Of a DNA stretch of 64,000 bases, positions 9,827 through 35,565 are shown in pieces. The notes beneath the pieces are model-generated. The model was given only the letters and a program-made list of their open reading frames with translations, was not told the origin of the DNA and did not search any database. Made by a program: the position numbers and the translations under genes. The stretch's first letter is position 1, and each line of letters begins with the position of its first letter. The DNA comes from Thozetella sp. PMI_491 (lineage: Eukaryota > Ascomycota > Sordariomycetes > Chaetosphaeriales > Chaetosphaeriaceae): NCBI GenBank assembly GCA_021432635.1, contig MU270083.1, forward strand, positions 128,114-192,113, given 5' to 3'.

Positions 9827-11462
9827 TTAGCATACTGACATTCCGCTCGCGGAGTAATACATGGTCATGTATACGCCTTTCTTCTTCGAGAACGCGAACG
9901 AGAGATACGTGTGCGTATAAGCCGGGGCTCGCAAGTCGGCTCGCGGGCTTTTATCATTAGTCAGTTAACGCCCAAGGTAGACAGGTATTGGAGGGAGAAA
10001 TGAGAGATACTCACAAGCTGTCCCTCACGGCGGCACCGTACTTGTCCGCCACGGCTCCCCAGCCCTGGAGCCTGAACACCTCGGCGAGGTTCTCGGCCAC
10101 CGTCTGGTCATCCGGGGCGTAATTCCACATGGGTACGTAGACTTTGACCTCAGGCAGCTCTCGCCCGGGCACCATCTCGAATCCGAAGCAGATGCCCTTG
10201 TGGCGCGTGTGCGTCTCCCGCGGCTTCTTGTGGAAGGAATCCGACACCGGCTCCCGCTCACCCTGGAGCAGGTGCCACACACTGCGCAAGATCTCGAGAC
10301 CCTGCAGTGTCGTCTCATCGTTGGCGAGCCCACCGAGCGTATACACATGTTTCACGACGTCCCAGCTGTTGCTCTCGGTGCGCCCGTACACCTTGACGCG
10401 AGCCCCGGCCGAGGGGTCAACGCAGTCGATGGCGATCATCTCGACCGGGCAAGGCTCCGGGCACGACGTGGCCATGTATTTCTCGAGCGTGTTTACCGCG
10501 GGCGTCAGCTCTGCGCCACAGGGCTCGAGGCCACGGATAGCGTCGAAGGTGACAGTTTCGCAGCTTCGCTTCGTTGATAGGGCCTTGAGGATGGGGAAGA
10601 AGTATGCCTTCATCCCCCTTTTCTTCCCGTCGAGGTCGAAAGCGATGAAGCTCTGGGGCGCGCGGCCGGGCAGGAAGGATGGAAGGCCGGCCTTCACCGA
10701 CGCCATCTCCTCTGCTGAGTGGAGGAACAAAGCCTGCACGAACTGGTTAAACCATCGTGTGTCGCACCGGTCTGCCTCTCGGGCGAGGGAGGGCAGAATC
10801 TGTGGCACGATGGCCTGAACAAACGGATCGGTTTCGGTGCCGGCCAAAGGACCGAGAGGCTCGAAGGTAAATCGGACCGTCGTCTTGCCCTTGGACGAGA
10901 AGTTCCAGCTGGGCTCGAAGGGAGAGTGGTCGTCAGTCAGCAGCGGCATCGTCTTCGCCTCGGAGCGGATTGGCCCAAACGTCGGGATGATGTGCTCAGC
11001 CAGGAAGCGAAGGTTGCTCTCCTTCTCTTCTACCATGTAGCTTCCGGCATAGTCCATAAGGTTCGCGATGGCAGGCTTGCAGGTAGCCCACCAGTAGCTC
11101 TGGTCCGCCGTCAGATTGTACTTGACGGCATCGCTCTCATTGCTCTCCGTTTTTTCAGTAGAAGACGCTGGGCTCGGGAGATGGGTTGCCTCCGCGTCCA
11201 CCTCTTCTTTCTCCGTGGTGCCCTTAGGCGGGACCTGAAGGATGATTCTTCCTGAGCTCGTGCTAGGGAGCTGCCTCGGCTCGCTGGGAAGGTAATCCTC
11301 TCTGTTGCGTTTCCGGAGCGACCGGATTGGCCTCAACTGGAACCCATCGAATGGCGGAGTATAGGATGCAGGGTGAGGAGCCGTCTGGCTGGCATTGCTT
11401 CTCGCCATCTGCAGAGACGAGGAAGGGCTAAGGGGCACAGCCGAGCTCTCGATAGCCTGCAT
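9827..11462 (-). CDS. DMATS-family aromatic prenyltransferase
   Basis: Exons 11462-10015 and 9947-9827 give 522 residues. The 66-nt intron has a GTGAGT donor, CTGAC/CTAAT branch and AAAAG acceptor. The enzyme should transfer a dimethylallyl group to an indole or other aromatic acceptor. PT-fold landmarks appear in order: the acceptor-side Glu in HSPFEPSWNF, TVRFTFEP, GMKAYFFP, RVKVYGRT, EVKVYVPMWNY. The last strand, YTHTYLSFAFSKKKGVYMTMYY, is supplied by exon 2. Without that short exon the fold would be incomplete. The first 120 or so residues form a low-complexity Ser/Pro extension not normal for the family; a second ATG lies 18 residues in. No PKS, NRPS, P450 or regulator sits beside it, so it looks like a stand-alone prenyltransferase. 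Its substrate cannot be read from sequence. Confidence 0.92.
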
Positions 11463-13537
11463 TTTTGATTGAGGTGCCGAAGGAGAGAAGCTTCGTGATC
11501 GTCTGCAGCAGTGATGAGAAGCTGAGGCTTGAGATGAACAACAGCTGGGCAATATCGAAAACGTGCAACGGTCTCCTGCCTTGATATACCTTCTCGGAAA
11601 GCCTATGGAACGAGCGGCCAGGGGCCCCCCAGTGGCTATGCCACCGGAAGTTTCTCCTTCCTAACGGAAGCTATGGGCCCAGAACCTCGGTGCTTTACTT
11701 TGGAGCTGGAGCTCCGAAGGCAGTGTCTTCTCCGTAGCAGCCGGCAAGCATGTCTCCCATGTCTTGACTAGTGCCCGTAAGCTTCTTGGGACGAAGCTTC
11801 AGCATTACTTCGCCGACCGACATGTGCAACGCCCAGAAAATTGATAGGAACAGCGTGCAGCATTGCTGAATACTTCCAGCCAATGCTCCCGTGTAGATGA
11901 AGCACTCGCAGACCATCCTCATTCACTTTCAAGCTTAACAAATCACGTTCCATGGTGGCCGAAGAGATTCAGTCAAAATCACATCAAATCTGAGAATTTG
12001 GAGCCGGCTGGACTGGGCAGTATACTAGAAGGCTCTTCAGCAGCCACAATGCATTAGCGCCCTATACCAACGGCTTGGTTCCGTTCGGTAGGGTTGGGAT
12101 GAAGATGAAACTGAGGCTGGCAACCCCAACGCACGTCCGTGACCTGGCCGCCTTGTGGGTGGAGCTTGCATCGGAGCTACACATTGGGAATGCAGCACCG
12201 CACACAGCCTCGCTTCTCGTATACGGAAACGGGAACGAATGTTGCCCTGTAGACAGAACACTGTATTTCCTAAACAGGATACCAGCACGAATGTACGCGA
12301 GTTCTGCCATTTTTGAGATGGCAAGCGCAGCTCCAAGGCTTCAGCATCGTAGCATGTAAGGGACACAGACTTCAGGAACAGTATGAAGTTAGAGTAGTGA
12401 AGAATCGTGTATTCCGCTTGAGAGTCTAGCCTATACTGATTTTGGTCATTGCTGGCGCATCCCATCCTGAGGAGCGCGCAATGACGAACATCAACCAGAA
12501 GGCATCGACTGCTTGCTACAAGAAACGTCCTGATTCCGCTAACAATTCTTCTGAAGGATAGTGTATTGGGGTTCCAATTCAGGAACGGGGCATCGAAAGG
12601 GGCATTTCGCTACTATCTTATGATCAAAAGGTGTTGTTGCCCGCCACGGCTCATCACATCTGGCTTCCACCGTCATCACTATCGACAAGATATTGGATAA
12701 ATGAAACACATTCTGTTGTTTCGCAGGACAATCCTTGTGACCCACTGAGGAGGACAGGACGAGCTCCATGCATCGGTATTTGACGTGGCTCGAAATATGT
12801 TCAGCAGCCAATGCTTGTGCGCGACAGCAGGCTATCTGGGAGGCATGAGGCGGAGCACATGGGACACAGCGAGCGGAAGCCACCCATGGGTCAAGTAGGG
12901 CTGTGACATGTATTCGTTTTCCGCAGCGTGGTATGAGACGTGTTTCTCAGAACTCAGTTACGGGGTGCAGCTGCTGGCACTCGCCATCGAGCTGTGCATA
13001 AGTTCTTACAAGTGACCTGGAAGAGTAAATATAGAATAAACATGATTAGCAAGGTGTATAACACGTGAAATTCCTGATACAATCCGAAAGAGAAATTCAA
13101 AGGATATCCCCATGTAAATCAGCAAAGTAACACCAAACGCGGGAGGCGGAGGGAGGAACTAGCAAGCGTCAAACTTACCAATCTCTTTCCAAAGTTACAC
13201 TTATATCCTGTACCTGAATTGTCGCACGGGTACCTCACCTTACCGTATCAGTGGCAGCCTCACCGCTTTCTACACCCCACCTCAGGACGAGGAAGCGAGG
13301 CGGCAGAAAAAAAAAGTCCTGGCTACCTTAGTTAGTAGCTGCAGATCACAGCCGCCGTTGATTTCTCCATCACCCACCCTTGAACTCTTGCTCTTCGTGC
13401 CACGGGCAGGCGCAATTCCAAAGCTGGGAGATCCTCAGTTGTAAACTCCAACTTGAGTATGTTTCTAGGAGCCATTTTCTCTCAAACATGCTAACACGAG
13501 CTCCAGACCCTCAAACATCCAATCTTGACCATTCTCC
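11463..13537. other. 2.1-kb intergenic region
   Basis: This shared upstream region lies between the divergent DMATS and Nop6-like genes. Short frames at 11695-12883 show no domain, no signal peptide and no consistent splicing. The part next to 13538 is AT-richer with poly-A and pyrimidine tracts, as in a promoter. I see no gene. Confidence 0.45.
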
Positions 13538-14861
13538 ATGACCGGGACCAAGGTTGCCGCCCGCGAGGGCCGGCTCAAGCGCAAGGAAGCGAAGCGGGAA
13601 AAATTAACATCGACAACCGATGCGACCCCGAGCGGCTCGGCCGCCACATCGGATAAGACCTCCAAGAAGAGAAAGCGAAGCAAGGAGGACGAGGTGGATG
13701 TGACCGCAAGCCCCAACGTCGAGGACACCAACGGTGCTACCGCCGAGGAGCCTGAGAAGAAAAAGAAGAAGAAGGACAAGAAAGAGAAGAAGTCAAAGAA
13801 GGAAAAGAAGGAGTCGGCCACCAATGGCCCGGCGGAAGAAGAGGTGGATGAGGCAGAGGCTTCACAGAAGGTGCTGAAGCCACTCATCCCCGCCGATACC
13901 CTCTATCCTGGCTACGCCGGTGTCCAGGAGATAAAGGGCGATGCTGAGACGGACGCTGGCAAATCACAGGACGACGACAATGACAAGAAAAAACAAAAGG
14001 CAGAAAAGAAGGCCAAGAAGCTGGCGAAGAAGCTGGCCAAGGCGACCCAAGCAGCTGCCGAGCCCGAGGCAGATACCCAGACCGAGCCCAAACCCAAGAC
14101 CAAGTCCAAGTCCAAGTCCAAGTCCAAGTCAAAGCCGAACGGAAAGACTACCGACGACGGCGAGCCCATGGCGGTTGATCCCCCAGCTGCCAAGAACGAA
14201 GAGGCAGCGGCAGGTGCAGAGAATGGCGACGATGGCCCCGCAGGGAAGTCGCGCTTCATCGCCTTCATCGGTAACCTGCCCTACTCCGCGACCAAGGAAA
14301 GCGTGTCGGCGCACTTTGTCTCCCTCCGGCCCAGCGACGTGCGCGTGCTCACGGAGCGCGGTAACCCGAAGAAATGTCGGGGCATGGCCTTTGTGGAGTT
14401 TGACAACTACGACCGCATGAAGACGTGCCTCGAGAAATTCCACCACACCGAGTTCAATGACGGCATCTCCCCGGTGCGCAAGATCAATGTGGAGCTGACG
14501 TGAGCAAACCTCTTCCCGTTCCCTTCCCCCTTCCCCCTTTTGCCCGCTCGCAGCACCCGTTCTCCCCCTTTCCGCCTTCATTCCTCCCGATGTTCAAAGC
14601 AATTCTCTATTGACGGATATACTAACTCCTCTTGAAAGGGCTGGAGGTGGCGGGAAGACCGCAGATCGCCAGGACAAGATCAAGGAAAAAAATCGAAAGC
14701 TCAACGAAGAGCGCATTCGGCGTACGCAGCGAGAGGAAGCCGCCAAGCTAGAGCGCCAGAAGGAGGCTAAGGCCAAGGCTCAGACGGTAGAGGAGAAGGA
14801 GGAGAACGACATTCACCCTTCCCGGCGGGGTAGGGTTCCCGTCCGGGGTAAGAAGTGGTAA
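13538..14861 (+). CDS. Nop6-like RRM nucleolar protein
   Basis: Exons 13538-14499 and 14639-14861 give 394 residues; the 139-nt intron has a GTGAGC donor and an ACTAAC branch. The N-terminal 230 residues are highly charged (runs of KKKKKKDKKEKK, KAKKLAKKLAK and a KSKSKSKSKS hexanucleotide repeat). One RRM follows, with RNP2 AFIGNLPYS and RNP1 CRGMAFVEF. The C-terminus is a basic coil (KTADRQDKIKEKNRKLNEERIRR) ending in RRGRVPVRGKKW. This matches the Nop6 group of small-subunit ribosome biogenesis factors, with a longer Lys-rich N-terminus than yeast Nop6. It should bind pre-rRNA in the nucleolus. RRM and basic tail are clear; orthology to Nop6 is inferred from layout. Confidence 0.88.
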
Positions 14862-15678
14862 ATGGAGTTGCGGATACGTCGTGTTACCTACCTAGGTCCC
14901 GCGGCACGAGGAACGGGCCGTCTTACATGAGGACACCGCTAGCCCGGCTAGTTCATCATACGCCTTACCAGGGCAGCGAGACGCAGGGTGCCTGCTCCTA
15001 ACATACCCCAATGCTTTATCCCTTTCACGAGCTTTAGGAATTACGGGTCATCTTCCAGGGCGTACGAACAGTGGTCATATACGGGTAGTCAGCGAGAAAA
15101 AAAAAAGTCTTTCGCATTTAACCATGAAATCATCGTCCGCCCGTATTCTCGTCTTCTTCCTTCCAAAGTTCGGCCTAACCAGCTATCTACAAAAAAAGCG
15201 GGATATCCTTTGTGATGTGTGATGCAACTCTGCAACCTTTGCAGCGCGAAATGTAGACAACCGAGAAACAGAGAAAGAAAAGTCGAGGGACGTCCCTCGC
15301 TGCCGCCTGGAATCTGGTTCGCCCGTCGCTTTTTTTGAGGGGAGTTCCAGAACACAAGACGGATATAATGTTCCGAACGAAAACCCGCCCAGTGTCCTGG
15401 TGGGCGGCGGTGACAGGCGGGAATTGTCCAGCGAGAAAGAGAGAGAAACGCTTAGAGCTCCTAACCAAATCAAGCCGTCTTTCCACGTAACTCCAAGTTT
15501 CGGGCATTTTGTCGCTTGTCGGCGGGCTCCGCTCCGCAAGCTATTCCTGACCAGCCCATGCAGGCCTTTGATCCAATCTCGGAAAGACTGAGACCTAAGC
15601 CATCTGGCCACACGAGAACGCAACGTTCGTTCGGATTCGGTCGAGATCCACAAGCAGCACGGTATGGGTGCGCTCCGC
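14862..15678. other. Convergent intergenic region
   Basis: 817 bp between the 3' ends of the Nop6-like and Rac genes. No supported gene. Poly-A runs occur near 15095 and 15190. Confidence 0.5.
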
Positions 15679-16731
<1,053 letters not shown>

Positions 16732-19700
16732 GGTTGATTAGACAAGACGTTTGCCCTCTTCGGAGTAGCGATGAGCTAAGCTTGGCTTGCAAACTTGGGA
16801 TCTCGGGAGCGGAAAAGGGGGGGCGGTGCGGCGGCCGGAGAATTGCTGGATAAAGTGGCCTGGAGGAATGGGGGTGGGAAAGATCACGGTTCGTTGAGAT
16901 AGCTGAGAGGAGGTGTGGTGGTGTGCTGCTGGCAGGTCGTCTCTTTGATGCAGAGACAAAAAAGCAACAGTGGTATCGATAGGCTCAAAATGCAGCTCTG
17001 CTGGGATTGCCGTTGCAGGTGAGAGCAGGTTTGGGGGGGGAAGAAGAGGGCAGGCCCAGATAGCTGCATAAAAAAAGTCGCGAAATGTTTCGACCCAGTC
17101 CGGAACAGCTCGGTGCCGCAGGGGGTGGTCGAATGGAGGTGGGCGAGAGGCCGAAGGTGTGTGTGAAGCACAGAAGCTGGGAAGAATGGACGACGAGTGC
17201 AACAGGGAGGCGGACAATTGGGAACGGTCCTCTCAACCCCCCCGCCTCCTGGCTGGCCCCCCCCTAAGATGGGAGAGAGCAGCCGAACGCGCTGGTTGGC
17301 CACCCGAGGCGAGGTACTCACTAGCAGCCTCGCTCGTTCGAGTTAGGGCGGGCAGTCACCAATGAGGGGCCGGGTGCCAAGACCCAGTTCTTTATGTGAG
17401 AGGTTGGCAGCGGGTGGAGGTACCGCTGGTACCTCGCTTTGCTGGATCTCACACCGCTGGAACCATGGGCTGCAAGTACCCTCCTCGCCTCTCCCAGGGA
17501 AAACCCCCCCCTCCCCCCAGGGCCAATGCACGGGGCAGAGGGGCGGGCGAGTGGGGAGGGTCTGGGACCAGGAGCCGGGCAGGAGGCCGGCAGGAGTTGG
17601 CTCTAACACTTTGGGCGTCAACCTCCTCGCGCCAGGAGAAGCGATTGGGACCACCGCTCGAAGGGGGCGCGCGGGGATCAAGGGCACGCGCGTGCCCCGT
17701 CATCATACAGGGCCATACAGCTTGTGAGGCTTGTGAGGCCCAGGGACACGGGCAGAAGTGACTGAGCTATGACGAGGGTGGCATCATTCAATCGACGTTA
17801 TCGAAAGACACCGATCGAGGCCTGCTTCCATCGGCCACCCTCCTTCTTTCTCGAAAAAAAAAGGGGGGAGGGGCTTCTTCCTTCTCCCGCCAGCCAGCCC
17901 TACCGCGCGACCACGATGACCAATGTGCACACGCCCTTGTGGTACCTACCGACTCAGTACGGATTCCGTACGGATCACGGCATGCCACACCTCGGGCCCA
18001 GGGTCCGTGGGCGGAAAGCGAGGCGGGCAGTGAGTCAAATCAAACCGTCGGGCAGCCGATCGCAGCTTTCTCCGTGCGCGACGGACTTGAATACCTCGGC
18101 TTGGCCCTGTTGGGTCTTGGGGGAGGGGGGTGCGTAGTGTTGCAGCTCCGTGCTCCGTAGAGATAGATCATCGAGGTTCCATTTCCCACCCTCCCCACCA
18201 AAAGAAAAAAAGAACAAGGTAGATCATACCTAGGAAGCTACCATGGTGAAGACTTCCCCTTCCAGGAGAGACAAAGTGATCCTATACTGGCAGGTTACAT
18301 AAGGAAGGTCCTTGATCGTGCCGTAGGCAGGAGGTGCAACCCCTTCTTTCCCGGGCCCTGAGCGGGAACGGCATACCTCCCACGGTCCCTTATCAGCTTC
18401 ATGCCTGCCATCTTTTTAGCCCGGATATCTAACTACCCTAGGCAGTCTCTACTCAAAATTGTGGTGTGTTGTGGAGGCGTCCCTAGTCCACCCCCCACCC
18501 CCCCCTGTGCCTGCAGCACTGCACACACTACAGCTCTTAAACCCCCGGGGGGACTTGGCAGTGCTTTGGGTGGGGAACTGGCATGCAGAGGCAGATGCAA
18601 GGCGAGACAGTTCGGATGGGCGAGAGGGAAGACACGCGGGAACGGTGCAGTGCAGGTGTAGCGTCCACCTAGAGGTGGAGAGGAAATAGAAGAACGCCCC
18701 TCCCAAAAAAGAAAAAAAAAAAGTTACTATCTTCTTATCCCCTTCCCCGGCGACGCATCCGGTATCCGTTCTAGTGATGACACGGATAGCCGTCAGCGGT
18801 GGTGGGCGAACCCACTTCCCTCGAACGGTCCTCCCCCCTTCGTCTCCCTCCTCCGCAGCGATCGATCCAGCAGCACGGAAGGAGAGCTTTCGAAATCCTG
18901 CCTTGGGGATCTGCTGGGCCTGGTGCCCAGAGCGTCGTCGCCTGGCGATCTCACAGTGGAGCTCAGGGATGGCCGGTCGAGGGGAGCTCGAGAGCTTGAC
19001 ACCCGGTTGTATGTTTCAACTGGCGATTGGACGTTGAAACCGTTGTTACCCTTGGCCGGGAAGTCCCGACTCTGCGTTTTAGCTAGGTCCCCCCGGCCGC
19101 TCTCTCTGCCCATCGATTTCGCCTCCTCTCTGCCCCACGGCGGGCAAAGACCCATTAGGCCACCATATGTACAGGCCGAGATCGTCGATCGGCGACCTCT
19201 TCGAGCGGTGAGATGGGGGATTCAGACGGTGAAGGGGGGAGGGGTGTGGGAAAAGGGGGGGGGAGGACCCAGAGCTAGGCTGCAGGCGCGGTCGACGGGC
19301 GTTTAAAAAGGAACAAATGCACCATGTCGACAGGTCCTGGCATTCTCGGAGTTCAGGCGCGATTCGATGCAGCTTTTGTAACATGGCTCTTTCCATGGAA
19401 CACCCGACGAAGCCCTCGCGCGGTGGGACGGCCAAGGGGCCCGGTCTGGGCGGAAACACTGCGCCCTTGATTCGTCTGTGTCGCGTCAGGCAAGGGACCC
19501 CCCAACGACCGTTCCCATCACGATGGACCGATCAGCTCTCTTTGCAACCCTCCATCACGTCCAACCTGCCTTGCCCAACCAACGCGCACCATGCCTGCCC
19601 CGCCGAGCGACGTCCCGGGTGAGGACGAAGCGCGGCCTGCCTACGTTCGTTGGTCGGTGGGAAGTTTTTTCTACCCCCCGGAAAGCCGCTAATGCAGCCA

Positions 19701-19861
19701 CGCAAAGTCACCACATTGACGAGGACCATCGACAGGTCTTTCACTACCGCTTCGCCGCTTCCACTGCTATCCCAAAGTGTAGGCTCGAGGCTGATTCCGT
19801 TCGCTATGCGAATGGAGGAGCCCCGCGACGCGGTGTTGGCCTGTTGTAGCAGTCGACACAG

Positions 19862-19890
19862 TTTATTTTATTTTATTTTATTTTTGTATT
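19862..19890. repeat. (TTTTA)n microsatellite
   Basis: Four to five tandem TTTTA units followed by a T-rich tail. It lies immediately beside the G-rich motif at 19900-19927. Confidence 0.85.
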
Positions 19891-19899
19891 TTTGAAAGA

Positions 19900-19927
19900 G
19901 GGGGGGATGGGGAGGGGAGGGGAGGGG
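19900..19927 (+). repeat. (GGGGA)n tract, canonical G-quadruplex motif
   Basis: Five runs of four or more G (19900-19906, 19909-19912, 19914-19917, 19919-19922, 19924-19927) are separated by loops of one or two bases. This meets the strict intramolecular G-quadruplex pattern with four-tetrad potential. Confidence 0.85.
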
Positions 19928-22579
19928 TAACAAGTACGGGCTGCTCTGCACATACCCGCCAGGCGCACAAAGGATGCAGGCAGACTCGGTTCTCTCTGCC
20001 ATGTGGCGGATTCGGAAGCATGACAGGCGACAGGGGGTGGGTTACACAAGATCGCAAATATCAACGTCGCGATTGCTTTGCCTACGCACGAAGCATGTTC
20101 GTAGGCTTTCCACAAAGCACCCCCACCGCCGCGCCATGCGGATCTCGACTTCTCTTCGGGCTGGTAAGTATAAAAGCGTTTTAACTGCTAGTCTGCGTGA
20201 GACACTCGCACACTTGCTCTAGAATAGAGCGCCACCGTTTCGCCTCTGCCGCCACGATTGGCAAGCTGCTTACTTTAGACACCCATTGCTAGACAAGCTC
20301 ATCAACCGAGAGTTTGAGACTTTCCTGGCCCCCTATTATTTTTTTTCTCTTTCCCCATTTCTTCTTTTGCGGAGAGCAGGAGGAAAGAGAGTCAAAAAGC
20401 GGAGAGGGGAGGCGACAGCTGCACAAAATACCTGTCGCATTCGACACCGTGCAAAGAATTTCACCCTCCCATTGGCCTTGTTGTATGAACTTGGAACCGA
20501 AGGCTTTGACTGCAAAGGACTAGTCAAACAACTACGGAGCCGGAACGCGACCATGATGACTAGTGCAGACCGGAAAATAAACCTGGTATCTACCTAATAA
20601 GCCCTAGCGGTTGAGGAAAATATGGTGGCTGAACCACCGCTGGAGCAGAGTGCCAATTACACTAGCTACCGAGCCGGTGTCTATACTTAATTGGAGGATG
20701 GAGCCTACTAGGTAGAGCTGTGAGACCACTCACATCATGAAGGAGCTTTGCACGTGAAGTCTAGGAAGCCTTATTTCCTACCATGCTTGCCATTTTCTCG
20801 CCAGGACATTTCATAGTGCGCCCTAAAAAACGAGGCATTGCTCCTCTATGATTTGCCGACGAGCCTGAGGATCTACCTAGTTTACGATGTTGCTTCAAGC
20901 ACAGCTCGTCCGCACTTTATATTGCATAGAGGCGCACATCTCTGTCAATAATAGCACAGTAATTACGATATTGTCGCATCGATGTACGATGGTGGTGGTA
21001 CATGACCTCTCTACGGGGGATTCTATCCTGTCAGCATCAGGTGTCTTCTATGCCGGTAAGTATCCGCCGTATTCTCTTGCTGGCGTCTCTAGCAAGGAAT
21101 GGGGTTATGATGGTATGTGCGATGTACTCCTTCTCCCTGCGTCTCCTGGCGGCGTGCCTTTGGAATTGCACAGCCGTCTGGCGGTCATCTTGACGTTGCT
21201 GTGATTCCTGTAGCTTCTCCATTCCTACGCATTGTTGTAGCTAGCATTTTTAGTCAAAAAATTGGCTACAGTTGATCATGGTCGATCTCATCTATGTCTT
21301 ACGAGGCGTAGGGGTCTTTTGTGTGACGCCGCGGCATTGGGCTAACAGCCTCACTTTCTCTGGATCACACGCTCTCTAACAGGGTCAGAGTGTCGGCAAA
21401 TAGTATGTGTAGCGCCCCATACTACATGTAGTGTAATGTAGTTTAATACTCTGAACAGGACATCTGGAAAATATAAGTTTGGTGAGCGCTCTCGGGGAGT
21501 TGCGTCGACCTTAACGCTACCCTTGACTCCCTTCACCCTCACGCTCCCAAAGCAGCTACTTCTTAGCAACGCATTGTCAAGGCCGAACCACAAACACTCA
21601 GCCTTTCGCCATCTTCAAAATGTACTCTGGCGACATCCTAATCCTCCTCCTCCCTATCCTACCCCCCGCCTCGCTTATTATTAATCCTCTCGAGAGCCCT
21701 TTCTCATGCCAACCGTTGCTGCTCGCTACGATGAGAGTGCGCGTGGGGTCTTGTGTTGTACGGCAATAATCATGAATTGGTGTCTGTTGAACTATGGAGT
21801 GAATTAATAGAACACACTAGGTTAAACATATACCAAGGTTTGTACAGGTCTGGCTTCGAGATCCATGGTCTGCCCATACAGACCTTCACTTAGGTTGAGT
21901 TGCAGTTTGAGATGCAATTCTAGAGATACAAATTTAAGCTTATAGAAATGCAAGTGTTATCACAAAACATTAAATCTCACCGCTACCCTATTCTACATAT
22001 CAACAAATCTCCCTAGGTAGGTATTACCTATATCTTATTTGTAAGATTCCCATGCCGCCAGTTGCTGAGGAGAGAGATTAGCAGCTCCCCTACCGATACT
22101 CAACCTACCAACGTCTTCTAGTAGCCTGTATTGTATATGCCTCGGTAAGGATCAAGGGAAAAATAGATGACCAAATCTATAGTGAGCACATGCGGTTCCT
22201 CAGGCACAACTTCATTGGCTTTGGATCAGAGTTCACGATTCAGATACCAACTCCAATTTGCATCTAGGAGCCGACCAAACATCGCCCAAAAGACAAGCGG
22301 AGCCGAAGACGGCTCTATATACAGTAGAAAGAACATACCCACATCGAAAAGAACCTAGGTACAGTCAAGGCAAAGGTAAAAAAAAAAAAAAGCCCTTCAA
22401 AGACAACAGCAACCTGACAACCGCATCTTCCTAAGAAATCAACCACGGGCCTTATAACCTTGTTCATCATCCCTATCGCCACGCTTCCCATCATAATCCA
22501 AAGGCGTTTGTTCGTTCCGATGCATAACAGGGTTCTACCAAGACTGGAAGGACCGATTGGCCCTCGATGACCCATTCAT

Positions 22580-23396
22580 CTAGGCCTGGAAGCTAACGGC
22601 ACGCGACTTCTTGTAACTGTTGTTGAAGTACTGCGTGGGCTCACAGAGATCTAGCCACATGTCGCCGGTGTCGCCGGGGCACCAGCGCGTGGCGCTGTCC
22701 GTCGGGGTCTGGTAAGCATCACGGCACAGGGTGCCTGCGTAGCATCGAATCAGCGTGCAGGTACCCGCGGCATGTCCGTTGCCCGTCGGTGTAACCTTGA
22801 CGTTGTCATTGCCGAAGGGAGTTCCGACAAGACCAGGGCCACGGCCGTCCAGGTTGCTCAGATCCCACCACAGAGCATCATTCTTGGTGTACTCGAGCTG
22901 AATGATGCCGCTGTTGAAGCCGGGGTCGTTCTTAGAGACCTTGACGCTAGTACCCTGTCCGTTGGCGATCCAGGGCAGGTTGAGGATTTGGCCAGGGTTA
23001 ATCTGAGCGTCTGGGAGTTGTCAGCTAGTGGCCAACATCTGAGGAGAGCCTCATGTGGGTCCTGGCCACGTCTCAGGAGGATACCTCGGGCCAAAAACGC
23101 TTTCAGGCGAAAAGCTGCCTAAGAGGTCCCAGCAAGGGACTCAGACATGAGTACTTACAATGTCCACAGACACCGTCCGGGCCGGCGTCGCAGTTCCAGT
23201 GGCCGGCACCGCCGACGCCAGGGTTGGCCTGACGGATGTAAACCGGAACATTGCACCTGGAGGCGAACAGGTCAGACAACTAAAAGCCAATGATTGGACA
23301 TGGTGCTGACAGAACATACCAGTTGTTAATGTTGAGGGTCGCAGAGGCCACAGAGGCCAGGGCGAGGATAGCGGGAGCCGTAATCTTGGTAAACAT
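22580..23396 (-). CDS. Secreted BYS1/antigenic thaumatin-like protein
   Basis: Three exons (23396-23320, 23256-23159, 23010-22580) give 201 residues. The introns are 63 and 148 nt with GTATGT and GTAAGT donors. A signal peptide (MFTKITAPAILALASVASAT) precedes a small beta-sandwich domain. The domain has NNWCNVPVYIRQ at its start, then IIQLEYTKNDALWWDLSNLDG, which is the hallmark of the fungal BYS1/antigenic thaumatin group (xQFEYT...YYDLSNID). Paired cysteines follow in the last third (GTCTLIRCYAG, CRDAYQ, RWCPG, DLCEP). Such proteins are secreted by many filamentous fungi and often change with host contact or growth phase. No catalytic activity is known to me. It ends with NNSYKKSRAVSFQA and has no GPI signal. 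It stands alone at the edge of a gene-poor island. Confidence 0.85.
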
Positions 23397-26300
23397 GGTG
23401 AGATCGTGCAGGAAGGACAGACTGCTATAAACGAAGAGAAGGAATGTGTAGGGAGCTTGTAAAGCCCGTAAAGGAGTGTGGAAAGGAGTGTTTAAAGGAG
23501 TGTGGAGAGGAGCGACCTCAAAGGAGTGACTGAAGAGCTGATTGATGCTGCCGACAAGTGATGGGAGAGTGTCTAGAATGTAGAACCTCACGATGGTTTA
23601 TGTAGTTGCCTTCCTGGACCGAGCATGGTCCTGGGTGGCCGTGCCGGGTACGTATTTCCTTAGCTTGTGCGGCAGAGGGTGGGATCGAGGGATTCAGCGG
23701 TGGGACTGTCATTGAATGACATCTTAGCATGATTTCATCGGTACTAGTGGCAGCCTTCTACTAGGAATAAGAGAGGAGCTGGCGTAAGTACGATTGGGTG
23801 ATGCTAGCCCTCGAACCCCTGCCCTGGACGAGTGGCACAACCAACGGCGTCCAGATGGCAAACATCCCTCTATGGATAGAAACCCACACCAACCGGGGCA
23901 CGGACAGACCAGGCCATAAGCAGAAATGCCCAGGGCAATAGACACGCTCTAGGCTAGAAGACGCCTGCACTCTTGAGCTACAAGAACGGCGGGGGCCTAG
24001 ACCGAGCGCTTATTGTCCGAATTCGGCGGAGAGACCACCAGGAAGATGAAGGGGATTTTGGAGCAGAGGAATCAAACGTCATTTAAACCCACCTAGGCGA
24101 ATGCAATGCTAGGCTCTCGGGCCGAAACGCTAACCCGGCACAGCCGTATGGTACAGGGGGGCATTGGTTAGTTTTTCAGCTGCGCCTTAACCAAGGCCCT
24201 ATTTGGGTTTGCAATAGTTGCCAGGATAGGACATGGCGGCTTACACGAAACTAGGCCAGTGCTTCGTTGCTACCATAGACAGGATCCTGAGTGCGGGTGA
24301 GGGATGGCATTATGTGTTTTTGGTAGACTCTGGCCAAATTTGCTAGCTAACCGGTACGCGGATTTCGCGTGGCACTGGAGCCTCGAAGAGTTTCGTGCCG
24401 CATCGCCTTGGGCACAGCTAGAGCCAAGCGCGGATGGTTACAGAAACTATCGACTCGGTTGTCTGCCAGGAACTTCTGGCCGTCGTTCAACACCGCCGTT
24501 GCAAGTACAAGCCAGGGCTAGCGGGCGCTTCCTTTCCAGCCTATATCAATGCGAAAGGGACGTGCCAGCCGCCACGCCTCACGATTCGGCGGCACGAAAC
24601 AGGCGATGGCAGCGAGGAAGGGGTTCAAAGTGGCATAAGGAAGATGGAAGCTTCGTTTCGTTACCGGATCTGTGGGAGAAGTTGAGAAGGTTGATATCAC
24701 AAGGCTGATATGCGATCCTGTCTTTCGGGGGTTTGGGGAAGCAGGGATTGAGACTTGACCGCTCTGCTTTGACGCCAATATTTGGGATAGAGGCACCACT
24801 ACGCTCGTTGCATGGTGCCGGAATCCACGACCGTCAACGTTTCGTGCCTCTCCAACAAGGATGACGAGCAGATGCGGGCTTCCCCGCGGACCATACCAGG
24901 CTGGTATATACGCTTCCTCCCCTGGTGGGACGATGCAGTCCCCACAAGCCAAGGCTCGGTACCTACCATCAAGCGATGCTGGCCGATGCTCTATCCGCAT
25001 TTAATTTAGCGATTTAGTGTACATGGAGAGGAGTTTCCTACGCTAGCCGGGCTGACCGACCGGGGAAGCTCGAAGTGTGCTAGGCAGATCGGAACCTGGC
25101 CAGCTGTGATGGGATAGATGGCCAAAGTCTCGTCCTGGACGAGCAAGTAATCAAAATTTAGCAGAAAACAGGCGCGGCCATTCGCCAATCTAGACCTAGT
25201 AAAAGGGGGCTTAGGGGGGTGCCGGGGGGGGGTTCCGACTTTGGACAGTACAAACAAGGGACGAGTTGTTGGGTCACGTGTCGCCAGCCATATGCTTGCT
25301 GTGGAGAAAAAACATGTTAACCAGCTCCGATCGTCCTGAAATGCATCAGTTCCGACGAGAGACCCAGGACTTTGGTTTGGACTACTACTAGCAGGTTTGC
25401 CGAGGTGGGTAGGAAGGAAGTCGATCCCAACAAGCCTCGTTATGCTCTATTCCGGTCGGTGGAGCCCCATAAAGGAATGGGAACCCCTCATTGGGCCGTG
25501 GCCGTCCCCCGTGCAAGGCAACCGCAACTCCGCCCAAATAAAAGGACAGGGTGCTGACTACAAGTACCGGTAGTAAAATTACTCCAAATAGCGCCTTGCG
25601 CCCTATTGAACCCATTAATCCTTTGGCTCCTCAGTCTGGGATCAAAAGTCCCCCCCGTCGACATTACGCAAGATAATTACCAATAGTCCTTTAAGCCGAC
25701 AGAAAGAAAAAAAAGAATACAAGAGCGTCGCTTACGATGGCCGACCTCCTCGAATTCAACCAGGCCAAGATAGACCCGTCCGTACCTTACTCATCGACCC
25801 AAGCTCGACCAACCCTGACAGTGTAAAGCGTTTCGCTGGTAAACCGCCGCCCGCTGTACGCGATCCGGCGCATCGCGCGCCAATCGGCTCCATGACCGAA
25901 CTTTACGGCAACTGCCGAGGTGTACTAGAATATTGATCCTAATTACTAATTACTAATTACTACTTCCATACTCTACCGCCAAATCGAGCAACAAGAATGC
26001 CTTCGAGAGCCTACCACGGGCCTCCTCCTCCACGACGGGGTGACATCGCTCCAGGAAAGCGACGCAGCCAAATCCTACCTGCTCAGGTGTCGGACTGTTT
26101 TAGCCATGGACAGAGTATTAACAAATGGTATACGGATTGGATTTAAAGATGAAAACTTTAAGAAGGATGCAGTTGCAAAAGACACAGCGGCAAGTAAATT
26201 TGCTGTTGCGAGATCTCATCACAGTCGTGGGGTTTCCTCGCCCTGCTGCCAACCCACGGCTACCTAGTAGAAAGGACCAAGGGGTCAACGTAACTATGGT

Positions 26301-27665
26301 TCTAAAGCTGTCATTTTATAACCATAGCTCCGGAGATATGGTTCCTTACTGTAGGGGCAGGTATAGACTTTTCGTGGCTCTCATAATCTTCCAGCTTATT
26401 CTCACTCGAAGCTATTGCGGTTGGTAACTCGTCGCCGTTGGCCCGTTTGATACTTGTATAGTAGCTGTGGATAGAGGTAACCTTGCTCGAGAAGCTCGAA
26501 GCTGGCCAAGTATAAATGATTTCGAAAGCTCCTACCAATCTAAATCTGAAACAACCGCCCTCTGTCAGATGAAACAGTATAAGTCAGAGGGAGCGTTGCT
26601 CCAGAACAAGCCAAAATTTTTGGCAACTTGGTCAAATCTGACACCCTCACACTTGCGTCTGAAGCGACCACGCCCAATTATCGCCCTCAATCAGAGCCAT
26701 CCTCACGACCCTCGCTACCTCCCAGCCAGCTACACACATCCCCGGTCCTCTTACACAAATAACCGTACCTTCCAACAAAAAAGACTTTGATCAACCCAGA
26801 TTTAATCTAACACCTCTAGGCCTATTAGAGGGACCAAGGGAACCAAACAGAGATATATCGTTTAAGGAGACTTAAGAGCAGGTCAGATATGTAATGTTTT
26901 GAGTAAAATAACTTATGTATAATTATTTCACCCAAGATAAAAAAAAATGTATAAGATAAAGTTAAATAGGGTTGGCGGCTAAGGGTGTAAGAACTATAAC
27001 AGTATCTCAGTAATAACAGCTCCTAGAGCTTAAGGAAGAATCGACGCCTAGTGGTATAATGAGGCAGTGTAGAAATTAATACAGTTGTTGAAGAAGAAGG
27101 AGCATGCGGTCCGAAAGACCGGTGAACAACTAAGATTTGCTTGATTCATTACTTGTGCCTAAGACGCCGGGCATGGTATACGCTGTGCGAACCAAATGTG
27201 CTTGTTCTCTTATGCTGTGCATCCTCTACTACATACACATACCTACCTATGACCATATTATACAGCAAAGATTTAAAATGCTCTCTAAAACCTTGAGTCC
27301 AACACAGGACCTCATTCAATGGTTTAGCTACAGAGGGATAACGAGACCTCCATATGGCAAAGAGGGGAGTCTAAAGCCCACTAATTCAAGCTACGAGAAA
27401 TGATGCGTAAACTCCGTGATACTCGTACACGATTCCAACGCGTTTAAGGGAATGTATTACGGTTGAAGGAAGTGTATCAAAAACGTAGATACATGTAGCT
27501 CGCAGTGTTTCTGATAACGATTGTCCTAATGTCCCTGATCAAAGATCGAAGAGCCTGCGAAAAGAAAGACCACTATTTGTACCATACTCAAGGAACCCCC
27601 TTAGTTGCTCTAGAGACTACCACAGCACATTCCTCATCACTATACACTTCCGTTTAAACGGCTCA
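23397..27665. other. Gene-poor island, left part (4.3 kb)
   Basis: Composition alternates between GC-rich (23.7-25.5 kb) and AT-rich (25.9-27.3 kb). The frame at 24304-24708 has no domain and no start context worth calling. From about 26820 to 27060 the DNA is TA-rich with dense stops, like an old RIP-affected repeat fragment. I find no supported gene. Confidence 0.45.
25941..25961 (+). repeat. Three tandem AATTACT units
   Basis: AATTACT is repeated three times without change. It is too short to assign a role. Confidence 0.9.
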
Positions 27666-28103
27666 CTAAGCACTATCAGAGAGAATCTCAAAGCTCCCAT
27701 CCTCTCCAACGAGGCGCTCCCGCTTGTCAACAGCTCGTTTGGCGGAATCAGAGAGGACCTCGAACGACTCATCGTCTCCAACCAGACGCTCCCGCTTGTT
27801 GACAGTTCGCTTGGCACTATCGGAAAGGATCTCGAAGGCCCCATCGTCTCCCACAAGGCGCTCCCGCTTGTCGACAGTTCGCTTGGCGGAATCAGAGAGG
27901 ATCTCAAACGACCCATCGTCTCCAACTAGACGCTCACGTTTTTCGACAGCTCGCTTGGCACTATCGGAGAGGATCTCGAACGACCCATCCTCTCCAACTA
28001 GACGCTCCCGTTTGGCAACACCATCAATTTGCTCCAAAAGTATCGGCGAAGCAAAAGCCACTGCTAGGTTGGCCAGCAAAAAGACATTTGGTGAGAAGCG
28101 CAT
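27666..28103 (-). CDS. Secreted precursor with five Kex2-flanked peptide repeats (KEP/RiPP-like)
   Basis: A single intact frame of 145 residues starts at a good ATG (CAAAATG). Residues 1-19 form a signal peptide, and 20-32 a short pro-region ending AKR. Five tandem units follow at 33-56, 57-80, 81-104, 105-128 and 129-145. Each is a 17-residue core, consensus ERLVGDDGSFEILSDSA, followed (except after the last) by a 7-residue spacer KR-[AT]V[EDN]-KR. The frame stops exactly after the last core. Every core is therefore bounded by dibasic Kex2 sites, and Kex1 trimming would free ERLVG...SDSA peptides. This is the layout of Kex2-processed repeat proteins, which include alpha-pheromones and dikaritin RiPP precursors. 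The core is acidic and lacks Cys, Trp and Tyr, so it fits neither class. No UstYa-like or other tailoring gene is intact nearby. A linear secreted signal peptide is the simplest guess. Confidence 0.85.
   Translation of the reverse strand: MRFSPNVFLLANLAVAFASPILLEQIDGVAKRERLVGEDGSFEILSDSAKRAVEKRERLVGDDGSFEILSDSAKRTVDKRERLVGDDGAFEILSDSAKRTVNKRERLVGDDESFEVLSDSAKRAVDKRERLVGEDGSFEILSDSA
27669..28007 (-). repeat. 72-bp coding tandem repeat, 4.7 units
   Basis: Units run 28007-27936, 27935-27864, 27863-27792, 27791-27720 and a partial 27719-27669, each starting at an ERLVG codon set. Units differ at both silent and replacement sites but keep all KR codons in frame, which argues for selection on the processed product. 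Confidence 0.9.
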
Positions 28104-28230
28104 TTTGAACCAGGTGGGTTGACAAGATAATGTTAAGAATATTGTGGTTTAGATGAAAGAGGAACAACACGGTGTGGTTGGTGGGCCCATTGAACAAACA
28201 TAAAGATCTACTCGTAGCAGGAGGAAGAGC

Positions 28231-28239
28231 CTTTATATA
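28231..28239 (-). promoter_or_regulatory. TATA-like box for the repeat-peptide gene
   Basis: TATATAAAG on the minus strand lies about 128 bp upstream of the ATG at 28103, a plausible core promoter spacing with a short leader. Confidence 0.45.
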
Positions 28240-28948: not shown

Positions 28949-29640
28949 ATGAAGCCCCTCCCTTTTAGGGCATTTTCTTTCCTTCCCTGGAGCTTTTTGC
29001 GTCGGTTGCTTTCTTGACGCACACCGCCAGTGCAGTACTGGAAACGAACTCGACCGAACCTGCTGCTTCGAGGCCGCCGCCACCAACACTTGCCGAAATT
29101 CCTAGTTATATGTTGCCAGATATGCCTAGACGAGACGGGTCTATCTTCTTTACGAACCAAACCTTGGCAGAAATCTTTTTGACCGCAAAGTCGCCATATG
29201 AATGGACAGTTCCAAGCGATTAGTGTCGAAGTCGGGGTCTCCGGGCAAGTCTCAGCCACACTTCAAGGAAATTGCCAACTCTGTATGTGGGTAGATGGCA
29301 ATCGGGGGCGGTTAGCAGCACCAGCTGATTCTCAATAATGGTCGGCGGACGGTGGCCCCAGGAAGCAACCGCTGCTTCCCCTTCGACTGGGGCGAAACTT
29401 CTGACCCTGGTCCTGTGTCGGACTACTTTCTTGCTACTTCCACCGAGTAGCAGCCCGAGTTGACAGACAGAGTGGTTAAGGGTCTGCTAATAGAGCACTT
29501 GGACGACGAAAACAAGAGATTCAGGAAAGTAGGCACGCTGAATGTTCGAGGGTCCCACTATGTCACGATAGGATATAGAGGAAAAGTCGATTGGAGATCA
29601 TGCGGGTTAGAATGAGTTAGTAACACTTTTGTAACTAAAT
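28949..29640 (+). pseudogene. Probable frameshifted gene for a secreted protein, family unknown
   Basis: An ATG at 28949 (MKPLPFR) opens a frame that stops within 25 codons. One frame over, a hydrophobic segment (LELFASVAFLTHTASA) continues into about 80 coherent residues (AEIPSYMLPDMPRRDGSIFF, FLTAKSPYEWTVPSD) ending at a TAG at 29221. Beyond it, protein-like readings continue in shifted frames: a VEVGVSGQVSATLQGNC stretch, then FPFDWGETSDPGPVSDYF, and RVVKGLLIEHLDDENKRF up to about 29610. At least two frameshifts and two stops would need to be explained, so I read this as a decayed secreted-protein gene. Unrecognised introns are the alternative. I do not recognise the family. Confidence 0.4.
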
Positions 29641-34102: not shown

Positions 34103-35565
34103 ATGTTCTTTCCAGGCACTTTGCAGGAGGGCATCGCCACCGCCATTCAGAGCGCGAAGACCGTGGTGTGCTTTGTGACCGACGGCGAGGACGAGAGCAA
34201 GCAGTGGGAAGATGAGCTGCTCGTTCATGAGTCCGTGAAGCCACTCCTCGAATCTCAAGCCGTTGTACTCAGGCTAGAGGCAGGGTCTGAGGGCGAGGGG
34301 TTTCTTTCCCAGCTCTACCCAATTCCCAAGAAGCCGACTCTAGTCGTCATCAAGAATGCCGACCTGCGGGAGTACATCGCCGCCGGCGTATCCAGGGAGG
34401 ATTTCTTCTCCAGGCTACTAAAGGCGCTCCAGCCGGCCCAGCCGCCAGCAACCCCAGCAGCGCCACAGCAAGCGCAGGCGGTCTCGTCGCAGTCTTCGGC
34501 TCCCAGTGCAACTCCTTCCACCACCGATAGCAGCTCTGGCCAGGCTACGCCCTCATCTAGCCAGAGCGCGGCCACCACCGACCGTGTGCCGTCTCGCATG
34601 GCTGAGCAAGCCGCCAGGGTCGCGGCTCAACGGAAGAAGGAAGCAGAAGAAGCGAAACGGAAACTTGCAGAGGAGGCTAAAGCCAAGGCCATGGCCGACG
34701 ACTCGCCAGCCGACCGGGAGAAAACCGAGTCGCAGAAGCATGCCGACCGGGTGCGCCAGCAGAAGCGCGATGCCCAGGCGGAGCGTGCACGCATCCTCAA
34801 GGCAATCGAAGACGACAAGGCAGCGCGCAAGGCCCTCCAAGCTGAGCGCGAAGCTGAGCGCCGTGCTGCCGCCGAGGGTGAGAAATCTGCACCTTTCTCA
34901 CCGGCGAGCCAGCTGCGACCCGCTGCAGGGCGCCAGAGCGAACACTGTTCACTGCAGGTGCGGCTGTTCGACGGGTCCACCATCCGCAGCAAATTTCCTG
35001 CCGGCAACACGCTGGCCAAAGAAGTGCGGCCGTGGGTAGATAATGCGAGACAGGACGGCAAAACACCTTACACCTTCAAGGTGTTGCTGACGCCCCTGCC
35101 GAACCGGACCATCGACGTGACGGAGGAGGGAAAGAGCTTGCAGGTGTTGGGACTGACGCCCAGCTCGACGCTCATTCTGGTGCCGGTGCAAAAGTCTGCG
35201 AGTGCCTACCAGGGGGGCGAAGGGGGAAACGTGGTATCGAGGGCCATCGCATCGATCCTTGCATTCTTCACCGGCATCTTCACCCTTATTTCGACCTTCT
35301 TTGGAACCCTGTTTAGCACAGCTGGTCCCCCACAAGGCGACTCGTCCTCAGCCACGTCCGCGGAGAGAACGCAGGCGCGGGCCTCGGGTAGGGATGACCA
35401 GGGCAGGATACGTGGGTTTGGGGGAGGCGACGAACGGCGCCGGGATCAGCAATTCTACAATGGCAACTCGGTAAGCTCACCAGAGTACTCTAACTTATCA
35501 TTTGGATTATTGCTGACATTACACAGACCAATTTTGAGCCAAACATAGACGAGCAAGACCAGTAG
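34103..35565 (+). CDS. ER membrane UBX-domain protein (UBXN4/erasin-like)
   Basis: Exons 34103-35470 and 35527-35565 give 468 residues; the intron has a GTAAGC donor, CTGAC branch and ACACAG acceptor. Residues 1-115 look like the thioredoxin/UAS-type fold of UBXN4 (MFFPGTLQEGIATAIQSAKTVVCFV..., ending LREYIAAGVSREDFFSRL). A Gln/Ser/Ala linker follows, then a charged coiled coil (AAQRKKEAEEAKRKLAEEAKAK, ARILKAIEDDKAARKAL). The UBX domain runs from about 280 to 360 (LQVRLFDGSTIRSKFPAGNTL to SSTLILVPV). A hydrophobic hairpin (AIASILAFFTGIFTLISTFFGTLF) follows, and the end is basic/Gly-rich. UBX domains bind Cdc48/p97 and the hairpin should place it in the ER membrane for ER-associated degradation. 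Start at 34103 is chosen because the domain begins there. Confidence 0.92.

Follow-up and report, generated by a model that had tools for sequence, protein, structure and literature searches.

The window analysed here is a stretch of 64,000 nucleotides of the ascomycete Thozetella sp. PMI_491, and the feature of interest is a short precursor gene on its minus strand that reads from 28103 to 27666 as a single uninterrupted frame of 145 residues followed by a TAG stop. An initial annotation had described a signal peptide, a pro-region ending in KR, five cores set off by KR spacers and a stop directly after the fifth core, without giving a strand; all of these elements are present at 27666–28103, and the strand on which they lie is the minus strand. 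The plus-strand frame starting from 27666 contains stops and is not open. An intron breaking the repeats, named in the annotation as a finding that would count against it, is excluded insofar as the frame is open throughout.

Read along the minus strand, on which all of the following features lie, the gene begins with a putative signal peptide of residues 1–18, MRFSPNVFLLANLAVAFA (28050–28103), and a 14-residue pro-region, SPILLEQIDGVAKR (28008–28049), that has the first KR at its end. Core 1, ERLVGEDGSFEILSDSA (27957–28007), is separated by the spacer KRAVEKR (27936–27956) from core 2, ERLVGDDGSFEILSDSA (27885–27935), after which come the spacer KRTVDKR (27864–27884), core 3, ERLVGDDGAFEILSDSA (27813–27863), the spacer KRTVNKR (27792–27812), core 4, ERLVGDDESFEVLSDSA (27741–27791), the spacer KRAVDKR (27720–27740) and core 5, ERLVGEDGSFEILSDSA (27669–27719). 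Core 5 runs directly into the TAG stop (27666–27668), which stands where the next KR would be expected. The description of the five cores as near-identical holds; yet core 1 is identical to core 5, so that the gene encodes four different 17-mers, and core 2 alone matches the consensus ERLVGDDGSFEILSDSA exactly.

The signal peptide was recognised by inspection and from hydropathy: it has an arginine at position 2, a hydrophobic stretch (the hydropathy of the precursor peaks at 2.48 over residues 7–17) and an A-F-A/S site, where the predicted cleavage site was placed by the A-x-A rule. Every one of the nine lysines of the precursor belongs to one of the nine KR pairs, which are its only dibasic sites. 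A TATA-like TATATAA (28233–28239, minus strand) that may act as a promoter element lies 136 bases 5' of the ATG, and between it and the precursor start there are two ATGs, one of which opens an upstream ORF of 22 residues. The idea that the pro-region is a decayed half-repeat was rejected, as 3116 of 5000 shuffles score equally well.

TRF describes the repeat array as 4.8 copies of a 72-bp unit with a score of 431. When the 519 stop-to-stop frames of at least 60 residues within the window were sorted by a dibasic-bounded repeat score, only the precursor frame (five copies) and its antisense frame (four copies) scored above 1 among the best 8. Between the repeat copies dN/dS lies at 0.067–0.289 for all 10 pairs, and 24 of the 36 differences from the repeat consensus fall at third codon positions. 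The cores carry 5 changed codons. A neutral simulation in which the copies were treated as independent and their duplication history was left aside gave a mean of 19.6, and none of its 10,000 runs reached a number as low as that of the cores. The KR pairs are invariant, whereas two of the three spacer positions and 4 of the 17 core positions vary; at core position 16 serine is retained despite switches between AGT and TCC codons. The third-position test by itself leaves the strand unsettled, the antisense being nearly as quiet (8 changed among 22 differing codons in the coding frame, 10 among 25 in antisense frame +1). We therefore assign the strand from the ATG, the signal peptide and the KR pairs, which decide the matter. 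The antisense frame on the plus strand (27670–28119) has no methionine, and no ATG-started plus-strand ORF of at least 20 residues overlaps it.

This layout is that of the KEPs (Kex2-processed repeat proteins), of which thousands have been predicted and which are defined, in PMC7329392, by a signal peptide and three or more tandem repeats that lie between dibasic sites and measure 8 to 100 residues. Here a signal peptide, identified by inspection and hydropathy, precedes five 17-mers, of which four are flanked by KR pairs and the last is closed by the stop. Judged by its sequence, the predicted precursor fits this definition and belongs to a known kind of gene. Usage of the term differs, with PMC7099791 separating KEPs from modified RiPPs and other papers counting both. 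Peptides of 9–24 residues are given as the commonest KEP class in Dikarya except yeast-like Basidiomycota (PMC6339444), and the 17-mer of this precursor falls within that class. The KEPs without DUF3328 neighbours, as described in PMC6339444 and PMC7329392, have the same signal peptide and dibasic-bounded repeats and, like them, the precursor has no UstYa gene that could be found in its window.

The search for relatives of the gene itself gave no confirmed case. Core fragments were absent from open-access text, and a match is possible in the supplementary KEP lists, which lay outside that search; none of the conserved KEP motifs printed in the accessible part of PMC6339444 was matched by eye. 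No second copy of the gene was found in its own genome (72.3 Mb in 157 contigs), even at E values up to 10. Among bacterial, archaeal and viral sequences, the repeat pattern picked out 243 stretches of genome_contigs and 13 of viral_contigs, none of which tblastn confirmed, a miss that says little about fungal relatives. The matches of the precursor in Pfam, NCBIfam and the PDB were short or summed over the repeats. The best from Pfam, KH_KRR1_2nd (PF21800; 28.2 bits against a cut-off of 27, 1.9e-6), is taken as a composition artefact because no stretch passes alone and the score sums over the repeats. The best PDB match (chain KWOCA_102, 3e-5) was also taken as a composition artefact, and NCBIfam gave no match over its cut-off.

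The anatomy of the gene supports its initial reading as a Kex2-type repeat precursor, and we consider it likely that the product is secreted and processed at its KR pairs. After the predicted entry of the precursor into the secretory pathway, cleavage by Kex2 behind every one of the nine KR pairs and removal of the C-terminal K and R by a Kex1-type carboxypeptidase would yield four tripeptide spacers and five linear, acidic 17-mers representing four different sequences, with predicted [M+H]+ values of 1823.866, 1809.850, 1793.855 and 1867.856. Because core 5 meets the stop without a KR, all five products would have a common SDSA end only with Kex1-type trimming. The agreement of the end that the trimmed cores would have with the KR-less end of core 5 is the best sequence argument for the 17-mer as the product. 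The same genome has a Kex2 gene with an S8 and a P domain. It also has 77 exon matches to S10 carboxypeptidases, the family to which Kex1 belongs, with Kex1 presumably among them. The arginine at core position 2 makes an alternative 15-mer product possible; other KEPs expressed in Pichia gave products that apparently came from cuts after a single arginine (PMC9769878).

One part of the initial annotation has to be given up, namely the comparison of the spacer remnants with the Ste13-type spacers of yeast alpha-factor. The dipeptides that come after the nine KR pairs are ER, AV and TV and never XA or XP, so the comparison fails; and since its own KR parts each spacer from the next core, dipeptidyl trimming would be unnecessary. 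It could also be proposed that the gene encodes a secreted repeat protein that is never cut and in which the KR pairs are incidental. We regard this as extremely improbable, given that every lysine is confined to nine regularly placed KR pairs that are kept at every site. A single-sequence fold gave a mean pLDDT of 42.6, which is very low and so indicates no folded domain, a lone repeat sequence being a poor test of folding.

If the precursor is processed, the cores could be cyclised or otherwise modified as in the dikaritins ustiloxin, phomopsin and asperipin-2a, which likewise come from repeat precursors with KR sites. A UstYa (DUF3328) profile built from five loci, with a sixth placed among the controls, recovered 3 of 3 control loci and found none among all 1611 frames of at least 25 residues in the window, so that the nearby UstYa gene of a dikaritin locus was not found here. 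The core also lacks tyrosine, which is typical of dikaritin cores and not universal in them: among the repeat sequences of KEPs linked to DUF3328, 65.6% contain it, and some types have HH or W in place of Y (PMC7329392). UstY-type cyclisation, against which the initial annotation had pointed to the missing tyrosine, is thus unlikely as far as the window without a UstYa frame is concerned, whereas absence of tyrosine is by itself no sufficient argument against UstYa-linked processing. In the genome as a whole there are at least 149 UstYa exon matches, with 150 of 203 candidates scored, and this large number suggests many cyclic-peptide clusters. The oxidases for a dikaritin-type ribosomal peptide might accordingly be encoded elsewhere, and the tyrosine-free types among DUF3328-linked KEPs (PMC7329392) would allow for such a core. 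We nevertheless think this very improbable, as none of the 149 matches lies on the contig of the gene (150 of 203 candidates scored) and none in the window, the core is without Tyr, Trp, His and Cys, and the Pfam-named neighbours are mostly housekeeping genes, though with a secondary-metabolism prenyltransferase 16 kb away. With no frame for a UstYa cyclase detected in the window, a linear peptide is likeliest.

The other well-known secreted, Kex2-cut precursors with several copies of one peptide are those of the ascomycete alpha-pheromones. In Sordariomycetes the usual alpha-pheromone core is of the WCxxxGQxCW type with two cysteines, and the core studied here has neither Cys nor Trp; the initial statement that it has no Cys, Trp or Tyr was confirmed. 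A separate alpha-pheromone precursor with four unevenly spaced copies of WCQIRGQSCW is present in the same genome (contig C21, locus L011, 1366–2220, minus strand), which bears out the earlier judgement that the repeat gene is not the usual Sordariomycete alpha-pheromone and makes it very unlikely that it is the alpha-pheromone at all. The pheromone itself points to a filamentous ascomycete, probably of the Sordariomycetes; WCQIRGQSC did not occur in open-access text, and a 5.8S rRNA search aimed at the identity of the fungus gave no match. Alpha-pheromone precursors are further characterised by XA or XP Ste13 dipeptides after their Kex2 sites (PMC6339444), and the repeat precursor has none. 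The contrast with the organism's own pheromone gene is real, not absolute. In the C21 gene XA or XP stands directly before two of the four copies, one of them after KR (DANP), and the remaining two copies come directly after KR; the missing dipeptides are for this reason a weaker argument than the separate gene. The repeat gene might instead encode an alternative or second sexual pheromone, with the same processing steps and a different function. The general precursor architecture is that of the alpha-pheromones and a Cys-less Sordariomycete alpha-factor has been described in Huntiella (PMC10182648), so that the idea has some appeal; the existence of the WCQIRGQSCW precursor and the lack of XA or XP at the nine KR sites leave it, in our estimation, improbable.

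The cores have a charge of about −4 to −5 at pH 7 and GRAVY values of −0.45 to −0.10, and the helical moment of the consensus core is 0.06. A lytic amphipathic helix is unsupported, with this low moment for the consensus core and an acidic sequence unlike lytic peptides. An EF-hand loop was also discarded, since on inspection the acidic residues are not placed as in that motif. The same processing steps could serve a peptide with a structural or cell-surface role comparable to that of Rep1. Rep1 of Ustilago maydis is likewise counted among the Kex2-processed repeat precursors, is listed among the examples of KEP-derived peptides and gives peptides that form amyloid-like fibrils (PMC9769878). 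In comparison with the fibril-forming peptides of Rep1 the 17-mers are short, hydrophilic and strongly acidic, which argues against self-assembly at an interface, and we give a structural role of this kind very little chance.

Since the cores are acidic and hydrophilic and their consensus is not an amphipathic helix, a lytic or self-assembling role is unlikely, which leaves a soluble signal as the best interpretation. We suggest, tentatively and with some doubt, that the 17-mers may be diffusible extracellular signals to the fungus itself, its host or a neighbour rather than membrane-active or structural peptides. A more specific proposal, which we find on balance doubtful, is that ERLVGDDGSFEILSDSA and its variants could be a new lineage-restricted linear peptide hormone or host-directed signal that has a receptor of its own, is produced along the pheromone route without need of Ste13 and plays no part in mating. 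Detection of linear KEP peptides is on record, and what KEP-derived peptides do is described as largely unknown (PMC9769878). According to the same source, knocking out kep genes in Coprinopsis produced no detectable phenotype, so that signalling is not established for KEP peptides in general. The Thozetella gene offers a clean experimental case, with one gene copy found in the genome, no UstYa frame in the window and linear products of predictable mass. Because the alpha-pheromone is encoded by a separate gene, a deletion of the repeat gene could be read without confusion with mating, and could thereby directly test whether non-pheromone KEP peptides are signals.

The surroundings of the gene were annotated with Pfam over all six frames of 14000–27600 and over selected frames elsewhere, where a small gene lacking long exons might have escaped notice; only the UstYa test extends over the entire window. 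The neighbours named in this way include a Ras-family GTPase, an RRM protein, CENP-T, SURF1, a UBX protein, a SET protein, ApbA and an amidase, together with Coq4, an MFS carrier, CENP-O, an acetyl-CoA transporter and pirin. About 16 kb from the repeat gene there is a tryptophan dimethylallyltransferase (Trp_DMAT, E 1.2e-110; 10011–11660, minus strand), an indole prenyltransferase of secondary metabolism. A plus-strand frame at 28949–29223 resembles a small secreted protein by eye and its first-ATG frame stops early, perhaps owing to an intron or to decay of the gene. At 34103–35548 (plus strand) UBX7_N and UBX are joined in one frame with a C-terminal SelK_SelG match, a pairing that seems unusual and may represent one protein or two. 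A frame at 22580–23020 (minus strand) is Bys1-like (Blastomyces yeast-phase-specific protein), with an E value of 9.7e-7.
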